Made by a program: the position numbers and the translations under genes
In this document: one piece after another, positions 61,267-64,000 of the stretch
Layout of the letters: every line of letters begins with the position of its first letter
Position numbering within the stretch: the first letter of the stretch is position 1
Assembly: GCA_902810745.1 (NCBI GenBank)
Contig: CADDYW010000003.1
Coordinates: 1 to 64,000, forward strand
Source: Chloroflexota bacterium
Lineage (GTDB): Bacteria; Chloroflexota; UBA6077; FW602-bin22; CADDYW01
Length of the DNA stretch: 64,000 bases
Direction of reading: 5' to 3'
The notes under the pieces: model-generated
Told to the model about the DNA's origin: nothing
The model's database searches: none
The model's input: the letters and a program-made list of their open reading frames with translations, nothing else

Positions 61267-62880
61267 TTGGCAGTAGCAACCGCACCCCGGCGCGTGGTGA
61301 GTCGCGCCTGGCGATGGAAGTGGCGCATTATCGCCGTCGTCGTCGTGGTCGGCCTGACCGGCCTGGTCGTGACGCTGAACCGCGCCCGCTCACAACCAAC
61401 CGTGCCGGCGGTGGCGACGCCGGTCGTGCGTCCGATCACCGCCCAGGCGTCGCTGGTGCCGGTCCGCCAGGCCAGCCTGACGTTTCAGTCGGCTGGCATC
61501 GTCAAAGAGGTACGCGTGAAGGCCGGCGACAAGGTGAAAGCGGGCGACGTGCTGGCGACCCTCGACACGACCGAACTCGACCTCAAGCTGCAGGAGGCCC
61601 AGGCAAACCTGGCGATTCAGAAGGCGACGGCAGCGCAGGTCACCGAGAAGGCATCCGACGCGGACATCGCAGCAGCGCGCATGGCGCTCGATAGCGCCAT
61701 CGCGAAGCAGAAGGAAGTGGAAGCCGGAGCGAGCCCGGCTGACTTGAAGGCAGCGCAAGAGGCCGTCGTCAGCGCGAAAGCGAGCCTCGACAACGCCCAG
61801 GCGCAGTACAACAAGGTGCTGCAGGGGCCGAGTCAGAGCGACGTCGCCGCGGCCGAGGCCAATGTGAAAACCGCCGAGTCGCAGGTCGCGACCGCGCAGC
61901 AGAACCTGAACGACCTGAAGGCGAAGCCGAAGCCCGAGGACGTCGCCACCGCTCAGCTTGCACTCGACCAGGCAAAGAACCAGCTCTGGTCGGCGCAGAC
62001 CTCGCGGGATGGCACCTGCGGCGCGGCCGGCTCCGACAGCGTCGCCTGCAAGTCCGCTAATGCAACGGTCGCCGCGCAGGAGACGGCCGTCCAGTCCGCG
62101 CAGGCGGCCCTGGAAATCGCGAAGAAGCCGGCCACCGCCGACCAGATCGCGGCCGCTGAAAAGGCCCTGCAGAGCGCCCAGGCCGGGCTGAGCAGCGCCC
62201 AGACCGCGCTTGCTAAGGTCAAGGCGGGTCCGACAGCGGCCGATCGCGAGGCGGCGAAGGCTCAGGTCGATCAGGCTGCTTCGAGCCTCCGCACCGCGCA
62301 GGCGAAGCTCGCTCAATTGCAGGCAGGACCGACGGCGGCGGACAAGGCGGCCGCCCAGAGCGCGGTCGATCAGGCTCGCGCCTCCCTGGAAAAGCTCACG
62401 AACGGCGTGTCGCCCGCGACCCTGGACCTCAATCAGGCCAGGATTCACCAGGCCGAGATCCAGGTCGCCGCCGCCGAGCAGGCGCTCAAAGAGGCCGAGC
62501 TGATCGCGCCGTTTGACGGCGTCGTCACGTCGGTGAACGTCACGCCCGGCCAGCCATCCGTCGTCAGCGCGGGCTCGACCGCCGGAGCCAGCGCGCCCGC
62601 CAGCGCAATCACCGTCGCCGACCTGTCGTCGCTTTACTTCGAGACGAGCGACCTCGACGAGGTCAGCGCGGCGAAAGTGGCCGTCGGCGATCCGGTGAAG
62701 GTGACGATCCCGGCGCTCGACAAGCAGACCTTCGACGGCAGCGTGACCGAGGTGTCGCTGGAGCCGACGGTCACGGCCAGCGGCAACGTCAACTACACGG
62801 TCAAGATCACGCTGAAGAAATCGCCGCCCGGCCTGCGCTGGGGCCAGACGGCGCGTGTCGAGTTCCTGGCCAAGAAATGA
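61267..62880 (+). CDS. HlyD-family membrane-fusion protein (long coiled coil)
   Basis: This 537-residue protein has one N-terminal membrane segment (WRIIAVVVVVGLTGLVVTL), a lipoyl/barrel-sandwich half motif (GIVKEVRVKAGDKVKAGDVLATLDT), a very long Ala/Gln/Lys coiled-coil hairpin (about residues 110-420) and the returning lipoyl half (LIAPFDGVVTSVNVTPG). A beta-barrel domain ends the protein. It links the MacB-type exporter to the outer face. The best start is the TTG at 61267 with GGAGGAGAGGAAA directly before it; a GTG at 61240 is the alternative. Confidence 0.88.
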   Translation: MAVATAPRRVVSRAWRWKWRIIAVVVVVGLTGLVVTLNRARSQPTVPAVATPVVRPITAQASLVPVRQASLTFQSAGIVKEVRVKAGDKVKAGDVLATLDTTELDLKLQEAQANLAIQKATAAQVTEKASDADIAAARMALDSAIAKQKEVEAGASPADLKAAQEAVVSAKASLDNAQAQYNKVLQGPSQSDVAAAEANVKTAESQVATAQQNLNDLKAKPKPEDVATAQLALDQAKNQLWSAQTSRDGTCGAAGSDSVACKSANATVAAQETAVQSAQAALEIAKKPATADQIAAAEKALQSAQAGLSSAQTALAKVKAGPTAADREAAKAQVDQAASSLRTAQAKLAQLQAGPTAADKAAAQSAVDQARASLEKLTNGVSPATLDLNQARIHQAEIQVAAAEQALKEAELIAPFDGVVTSVNVTPGQPSVVSAGSTAGASAPASAITVADLSSLYFETSDLDEVSAAKVAVGDPVKVTIPALDKQTFDGSVTEVSLEPTVTASGNVNYTVKITLKKSPPGLRWGQTARVEFLAKK

Positions 62881-62891
62881 TCTGGCCGGCC

Positions 62892-63458
62892 TTACGGAGC
62901 GATCGGTAGCTCGGCGGGCGGCACGGTGACGACCAGAAACTGTGCCTCCTCCGCACCGACCGCTTCGTAGGTGTGCGGCACGCGCCCCTCCAGCAGGGCG
63001 CTGTCGCCGTCGGTCAGCTCGATCTCGTGCCCTCCCTGAAGCAGTCGCACGGTGCCACTCAGCACCCAGAGAAGCTCCTGGCCCGGGTGGGCGTGGTCGC
63101 ATCCCCCGGCCAGGCCTCCCGGTTGCAGGCGCAGCAACGCTCCCTGAAGCTGATTCGCCTCGACCGGCGGCGCCAGGTATTCGACCTCCGGCGAGCTGCC
63201 CCAGCGGACGCGGGGACGGCAGCGGGCGCGGACAATGCGCGGCGCGGGGGGCGCTTCAAGCAGATCGCCGGTGCAGAGCCCGAGCGCTTCGGCAATCCTT
63301 CCCAGGCTATCGAGCGAGAGCGAGGCCTTCCCGGTCTCGACCTGACTTACAAACCCCGGGGACAGACCGGCAAGCTGCGCGAGAACTGGAATCGTCATCC
63401 CCTTACGGAGCCGCAGCGCTCGAATCCTTGCTCCAATATTCTGCACTTTTTCTCTCAC
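62892..63458 (-). CDS. XRE-family regulator with C-terminal cupin
   Basis: This 188-residue regulator has an XRE helix-turn-helix (IGARIRALRLRKGMTIPVLA, then GLSPGFVSQVETGKASLSLD, residues about 8-65) and a cupin barrel (HAHPGQELLWVLSGTVRLL and VPHTYEAVG, residues about 95-185). Such proteins bind a small ligand in the cupin and repress or activate nearby genes. The start is uncertain: GTG 63458 and GTG 63446 both lack a ribosome-binding site. It lies divergent from the peroxiredoxin gene and might control it, but that is inferred from position. Confidence 0.8.
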   Translation of the reverse strand: MREKVQNIGARIRALRLRKGMTIPVLAQLAGLSPGFVSQVETGKASLSLDSLGRIAEALGLCTGDLLEAPPAPRIVRARCRPRVRWGSSPEVEYLAPPVEANQLQGALLRLQPGGLAGGCDHAHPGQELLWVLSGTVRLLQGGHEIELTDGDSALLEGRVPHTYEAVGAEEAQFLVVTVPPAELPIAP

Positions 63459-63468
63459 CGACAAGAAA

Positions 63469-63497
63469 TTGACGAAGGTAAAAGTGCTCGCTACACT
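63469..63497 (+). promoter_or_regulatory. Promoter of the selenoprotein peroxiredoxin gene
   Basis: TTGACG at 63469-63474 and TACACT at 63492-63497 are 17 bases apart. The ATG at 63610 follows about 105 bases after the expected start of transcription. Confidence 0.6.
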
Positions 63498-63609
63498 TGG
63501 CTCAAGACGAGAGTTCGGAGAGGTATTGCTCGCTCGCCCTGAACTCCCGTTCGCATTCGTGCTGATGCCATTATATCCCGTGAGCAACGCTCCGCGAACG
63601 GAGATACCG

Positions 63610-64000
63610 ATGCCACTCCTGTCGTCTCACGTACCGCCAGGTACGCGCGCACCAACCTTTACGCTCCCGTCCGCAACGGGCGGATCTCTAGGGATCACCG
63701 ACTTCCACGGTCGGGCTCACCTGGTCCTGGTGTTCCTGCGGGGATCTCGCTGACCGTTCTGCCGGAGGCATCTCGCGCAGTTGCGCGACGACTACGCGGA
63801 ATTTCGCCGTCGAGGGGCAGAGGTCGTCGGCATCGCCCCGCACGACGTCGCCGAGGCCCACCGACTCGTCCAGGATCTCAAGATCCCCTTCCCAATCCTG
63901 GCCGACGATAATCGCGCGGTCTTCCTCGCCTACGACGTCCAGAGTCGCCCGTGGTCGCTCGGCCAGCGGCCGGCCGTCTACGTCGTCGATCGGGCCGGGG
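63610..64000 (+). CDS. Peroxiredoxin-like (AhpC/TSA) protein, probable selenoprotein with TGA at codon 48 (runs off window)
   Basis: From ATG 63610 (GGAG upstream) the frame reads [31 protein letters not shown], then TGA at 63751-63753, then PFCRRHLAQLRDDYAEFRRR, VVGIAPHDVAEAHRL, FPILADDNRAVFLAYDVQ and RPAVYVVDRAG to the window edge. The family has Cys exactly where the TGA stands (RG..CPxC), so the motif becomes UPFC (UxxC, Sec48-Cys51). The frame stays open and well coded for over 240 bases after the TGA. A hairpin TCGCGC/GCGCGA with loop AGTT lies 25 bases downstream, within the bacterial SECIS model. It should reduce peroxides or disulfides; a Cys-to-stop mutation is the alternative. Confidence 0.65.
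63773..63788 (+). promoter_or_regulatory. Candidate bacterial SECIS element
   Basis: TCGCGC (63773-63778) pairs with GCGCGA (63783-63788) around loop AGTT. The distance from TGA to the apical loop is 25 bases and the second loop base is G; both agree with the bSECIS model (16-37 bases, G in the first two loop bases, stem of at least 4 bp). Confidence 0.5.

Follow-up and report, generated by a model that had tools for sequence, protein, structure and literature searches.

An in-frame TGA in a Chloroflexota AhpC/TSA gene predicted to encode a UxxC selenoprotein

A TGA triplet that appears to end a short gene in this Chloroflexota bacterium is almost certainly read as selenocysteine (Sec), placed at the active site of a redox protein with a thioredoxin fold. 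The most probable product, with a likelihood that we put at about three in four, is an AhpC/TSA selenoprotein with a UxxC motif, decoded with SelB and a hairpin and acting mainly as a thiol:disulfide oxidoreductase. The gene lies on the forward strand at the end of the window, i.e., the whole 64,000-nucleotide stretch that was analyzed (C3:1-64000). It starts with an ATG at 63610, carries the in-frame TGA at 63751-63753, and then remains open up to the window edge at 64000; on the contig beyond, the frame is closed by a TAG at 64174-64176, giving a protein of 188 residues. The preliminary description of this DNA had proposed that the open frame continues past the apparent stop at 63753, and this was borne out by the extension to the TAG and by a match to PF00578 (AhpC-TSA) that runs across the TGA (residues 10-134, model positions 1-123/124, E value of 7.9e-27, 94.1 bits against a cut-off of 26). 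A Redoxin domain match was also found in the read-through protein. The TGA corresponds to Sec48, the first residue of UPFC, and the second member of the UxxC pair is Cys51, encoded by a TGC at 63760-63762 on the same strand; both features of the Prx-like UxxC kind, the motif and the PF00578 domain, are thus present. When table 11 is used, translation from the ATG at 63610 ends after residue 47, and the list of open reading frames (ORFs) holds a 94-residue ORF at 63469-63753, which is the very fragment that had been foreseen from a gene caller. A direct promoter had been claimed as well; one sigma-70-like sequence does occur at 63469-63497, and this single match (9 of 12 bases, with 0.2 matches predicted by shuffled sequences) is weak evidence for it. 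In the 64-kb window, no Rfam match at gathering scores and no tRNA by ARAGORN were obtained.

All four components of the Sec machinery that were looked for in the same genome, i.e., selA, selB, selD, and tRNA-Sec, are present on contigs other than C3. Contig C2 carries a tRNA-Sec at 88940-89033 (69.5 bits; cut-off, 47), reported at the same place by ARAGORN with anticodon tca, along with selA (558.1 bits; cut-off, 267.9) and selB (368.7 bits; cut-off, 242.25), and selD was found on C18 (389.3 bits; cut-off, 125). Selenocysteine can therefore be made with the genes of this genome. The tRNA-Sec cut-off of 47 was exceeded in 23 of the 29 class genomes searched, the source genome included, and also in 5 of 14 control genomes. 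The selD gene has one in-frame TGA of its own, in the motif GAGUACK (L025, C18, position 1501 onwards), and its product is probably itself a selenoprotein. The draft assembly is fragmented and 96.6% complete, and its estimated contamination of 7.92%, together with the location of the sel genes on C2 and C18 rather than on C3, counts against our explanation.

Close orthologues come from G003 (72% identical) and G001 (54% identical), genomes of two further genera in the family. Each has one TGA, and the TGA column is common to both of them and the source gene (RG[SA]RUPFC). In a search of 29 genomes of the class, 22 gave some match at 1e-12; beyond the source genome (G000), only G003 and G001 had close ones, the next-best match having 35% identity. 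A first scan of contigs found no relative, and a second one, with alignment, found two loci that were taken to be these two orthologues again. The remaining family mate, G002, carries a tRNA-Sec and lacks a close orthologue. In G003, the source of the closest orthologue, selB was found (357.5 bits) and no tRNA-Sec exceeded the cut-off (best score of 45.2 versus 47), which likewise speaks against our explanation. For the three pairs of genes, dN/dS values were 0.17/1.34, 0.35/1.26, and 0.43/2.05 over the 116 codons after the TGA and 0.37/1.17, 0.61/1.92, and 0.61/1.51 over the 46 codons before it. The region after the TGA is under purifying selection, and no decay of the downstream frame, which had been named as a sign that would speak against a selenoprotein, was seen in these relatives.

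A profile of the three orthologues was compared with 400 genomes of the phylum drawn from a larger group (E ≤ 1e-25), with at most nine candidates scored per genome. Matches were obtained in 75 of the 400 genomes, with at least one close match each, and all of them, 94 in total, were taken. The earlier suggestion to look for homologues with Cys or Sec at the TGA column turned up both: the column holds TGA in 80 of these best 94 matches, Cys in 11, Thr in 2, and Ser in 1, a share of Sec that is valid for close relatives only, since these matches were ranked best by a profile built from three Sec genes and do not sample all CxxC relatives fairly. Cysteine is found at position +3 in all 94. The 80 Sec loci are spread over 15 taxonomic families. 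On a tree of the proteins, the Sec label requires 4 changes compared to a mean of 13.3 with shuffled labels, and six Cys proteins form a group nested within the Sec proteins with moderate support (forks 87/73 to 92/100). Cys forms of the same motif were noted in genomes G261, G282, G324, and G163 (L136, L094, L088, and L095), all of one taxonomic family (f35); the frame at L088 is longer and includes a further match of a thioredoxin-like kind. More distant relatives in the class have in-frame TGAs of a TxxU-like kind at or near the peroxidatic Cys, e.g., TPGU (L035, L050, L058, L059, and L060), and another class relative, L045, is a UxxC AhpC/TSA gene with an in-frame TGA and the motif LGULPC. 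Sec use in this class thus seems to extend beyond a single Prx-type protein.

A SECIS-like hairpin follows the TGA on the forward strand at 63771-63791, with a 5′ arm at 63771-63778, the loop AGTT at 63779-63782, and a 3′ arm at 63783-63791 (eight pairs with one bulged base). Elements of the bSECIS type form a hairpin just after the UGA, in which one of the first bases of the loop is a G and the spacing is about 16 to 37 nt. The loop sequence and the 25 nt between the TGA and the loop fit these limits, so that the hairpin reported in the preliminary description holds up in both spacing and loop base. The hairpin is also predicted for the two orthologues, with an A-T in place of one G-C pair and the loop GGTT in G003. 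When folded at 54 or 60 nt, and not at 42 or 48 nt, the source sequence adopted a longer structure in which the inner stem was kept, and at 60 nt the inner stem of L032 was lost. The remote relative L045 gave a perfect 7-pair stem with the same spacing in a 42-nt fold. To assess stability, each of 77 distinct Sec loci was compared with 300 synonymous recodings of itself, and each of 230 control stretches from these genes with 100. The Sec loci had a mean z of -1.92, with p ≤ 0.05 in 38 of 77, compared to a mean z of 0.01 and p ≤ 0.05 in 12 for the control stretches. For the source gene, p was 0.017 (300 synonymous recodings), and for the orthologues, 0.06 and 0.017. The hairpin, which is thus more stable than its recodings (all but 1.7% of them in the source gene), is under synonymous constraint.

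Pairing was also compared with that of stems slid by one to three positions. In 48 loci picked by protein motif alone, 89% of the stem cells for six pairs can pair versus 19 to 57% when slid, and there are 9 two-sided changes versus 0 to 3 for the slid partners. Across all 77 loci, 75% of stem cells pair versus 29 to 55% when slid, and the 34 two-sided pair changes show no excess over one slid version (34), which counts against our explanation. The codon at the loop is TTG in 36 of the 48 motif-picked loci; elsewhere in the genes of the 77 loci, TTG accounts for 135 of 1,057 Leu codons. The spacing is variable, with 88 loops in the 77 loci (43 at 25 nt, 15 at 16, 9 at 21, 8 at 31, and 7 at 13), and this variability is a further point against our explanation.

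The gene had been proposed to encode a Sec peroxiredoxin with the UxxC motif at the peroxidatic Cys. While the Sec gene, the motif, and the AhpC/TSA domain stand, the place of the TGA had to be revised. When aligned with the best PDB sequence, the source protein has Cys51 at the place of the peroxidatic Cys of peroxiredoxins and the TGA at that of the Thr in TxxC, and on this alignment of columns the proposal that the TGA occupies the peroxidatic position was rejected. In the columns of R44, U48, C51, and P121 of the source protein, three canonical peroxiredoxin rows show Pro, Thr/Ser, Cys, and Arg, and this protein lacks the canonical pattern, PxxxTxxC (or TxxU) with a catalytic Arg. The Pro121 column, which holds Arg in 3 of 3 canonical rows, holds Pro in 61 of the 80 Sec rows, Gly in 10, Thr in 8, and a gap in 1; the 19 rows with Gly, Thr, or a gap at the cis-Pro place also count against our explanation. 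The motif of human peroxiredoxin 5 is given as TxxC, and cis-proline is described for thioredoxins and cytochrome maturation proteins with arginine at the same place in peroxiredoxins (PMC2757866). With Sec at the Thr place and Pro at the Arg place, the protein would therefore have a thioredoxin/TlpA-type active site on an AhpC/TSA domain. A structure model (3 sequences; pLDDT, 83.0; pTM, 0.77), in which Cys was modeled for Sec, places a helix at residues 49-60 directly after residue 48, and its PDB fold matches rank peroxiredoxins first and include ResA.

From the computed frame, machinery, conserved TGA, hairpin, and column identities, we infer the following course of events. With the hairpin 25 nt downstream as a guide, SelB and Sec-tRNA would insert Sec at the UGA at 63751-63753. 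In the resulting thioredoxin-fold AhpC/TSA protein, the Sec48-x-x-Cys51 pair would open the active-site helix, with a Pro at the cis-Pro place. Sec48 could then attack a disulfide (or a hydroperoxide), Cys51 would resolve the product with formation of an Se-S bond within the protein, and a thiol reductase of the cell would presumably restore the protein. Thiol:disulfide oxidoreduction would be its main role, and it may have some peroxidase activity of the GPx type as well. It is rather unlikely, though a reading to be reckoned with, that the protein is first of all a selenocysteine peroxidase in which Sec is peroxidatic in the manner of GPx or Sec-peroxiredoxins, hydroperoxides are reduced, and Cys51 is the resolving residue. 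The AhpC-TSA and Redoxin domains and the peroxiredoxins among the best fold matches agree with such a peroxidase, and Sec is at the first position in some Prx-like selenoproteins. GPx, too, has Sec at the first position of its motif. However, the Pro, Thr, and Arg of the peroxiredoxin triad are replaced here by Arg44, Sec48, and Pro121, and the peroxidatic residue of peroxiredoxins sits at the place of Cys51, going by the motif as presented in PMC2757866.

The decoding of the TGA as Sec was weighed against two other accounts, each of which we consider extremely improbable. The fragmented and partly contaminated draft would make it conceivable that the TGA was misread in sequencing or that the gene is decaying and the TGA a true stop. 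However, two independent orthologues (72% and 54% identical) share the TGA column, as do 80 of the best 94 matches, the codons after it are under purifying selection, and the hairpin is synonymously constrained; error and pseudogene were rejected on account of the shared column and this selection. That TGA is reassigned in the source genome to another residue, e.g., Trp, would agree with the reading through of in-frame TGAs both here and in selD, but TGA serves as the stop of the nearby upstream gene that ends at 62880, a tRNA-Sec with anticodon tca is present, and CxxC relatives have Cys in this column. Reassignment was rejected on these grounds.

On the minus strand, a divergent gene at 62892-63587 encodes an XRE-cupin regulator, in which HTH and Cupin_2 domains were found. 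The preliminary description had seen in it part of a regulated redox system; the gene is real, and the idea of regulation found no support. A tblastn comparison with both orthologue loci (3,000 bases upstream, about 2,000 and 3,000 downstream) gave no match to this regulator, and the gene was rejected as part of a conserved unit and is regarded as a neighbor only. At its place, the orthologue loci have another long ORF, which by reading of its sequence appears to encode an oxidoreductase. Downstream of the Sec gene, a short-chain dehydrogenase is present in all three genomes (88% and 80% identical), the copy in G003 being supported by Pfam. Between the two genes, G000 and G003 encode a small hydrophobic protein of about 72 to 82 residues immediately behind the Sec gene (L031:2090 onwards and L032:1990 onwards), and a simple filter showed none in G001; its gene and the Sec gene possibly share one transcript. 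A Cys-type AhpC/TSA paralogue with the motif CSDC or CLAC lies a few kilobases downstream, past the short-chain dehydrogenase, in G000 and G003 (L003, C3:67274-67681, and L091:4699-5343, both on the minus strand).

Among known proteins, the source protein best fits the name "Prx-like thiol:disulfide oxidoreductase, UxxC," a kind of selenoprotein that has already been published as a computational prediction. These selenoproteins are presented as having PF00578 and a UxxC or UxxU motif (PMC2398784, PMC9312934, PMC13188914), and the UxxC family itself is given as predicted (PMC9312934, PMC13188914). One published UxxC protein of this kind, WP_010940744.1, is mentioned by name in PMC13188914. The source protein resembles them in its Pfam domain, its UxxC motif, and its predicted Sec. 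In contrast to "Prx-like 1" of the GOS survey, for which 225 Sec and 2,740 Cys members are tabulated (PMC2398784), the close Chloroflexota relatives are mostly Sec forms (80 of 94), the two groups being likened by domain and motif. Canonical Sec peroxiredoxins (PF00578, TxxU) share the domain and the fold with the source protein, whereas its Sec lies three residues earlier, at the Thr place, with Pro for Arg. ResA/TlpA-type cytochrome maturation thioredoxins share with it a CxxC-type pair, the Pro at the cis-Pro place, and matches in sequence and fold; it differs from them in having Sec for the first Cys, and NF002854 scored only 46 of 170 bits. The best NCBIfam match was to the SelL-related redox protein NF040769 (residues 14-112), at 72.5 bits, below the curated cut-off of 120, and by this score it is not assigned to the SelL-related proteins. 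No NCBIfam model reached its cut-off for the source protein or for 10 others scanned (8 relatives and the 2 orthologues); these 10 scored 57.1 to 82.1 bits with NF040769, which was again the best match for 9 of them. With PF00578, UxxC, a thioredoxin-type site, and no NCBIfam model at cut-off, the protein was therefore filed under the known predicted kind and not as a canonical peroxiredoxin. Three selenoproteins of Chloroflexi are counted in the survey data of PMC1794560, and among the titles listed for selenoproteins in Chloroflexi or Chloroflexota none was on the group described here, although such work may exist.

We tentatively propose, with the odds slightly against it, that the UxxC AhpC/TSA proteins of Chloroflexota form a seleno-thioredoxin-like branch on a peroxiredoxin scaffold, present in many families, in which Sec is usual and perhaps ancestral and some Cys forms are derived from Sec forms. 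The gene described here is real and easily overlooked by gene callers, as table 11 cuts it and would also cut its TGA-bearing relatives. Mildly notable is the extent to which Sec exceeds Cys among the closest relatives. It points to a regular use of selenium in uncultured soil Chloroflexi, the soil habitat being suggested by the name of one MAG (Centralia), and provides a sizeable set in which to ask what has preserved Sec at a position of the thioredoxin type within a peroxiredoxin scaffold.
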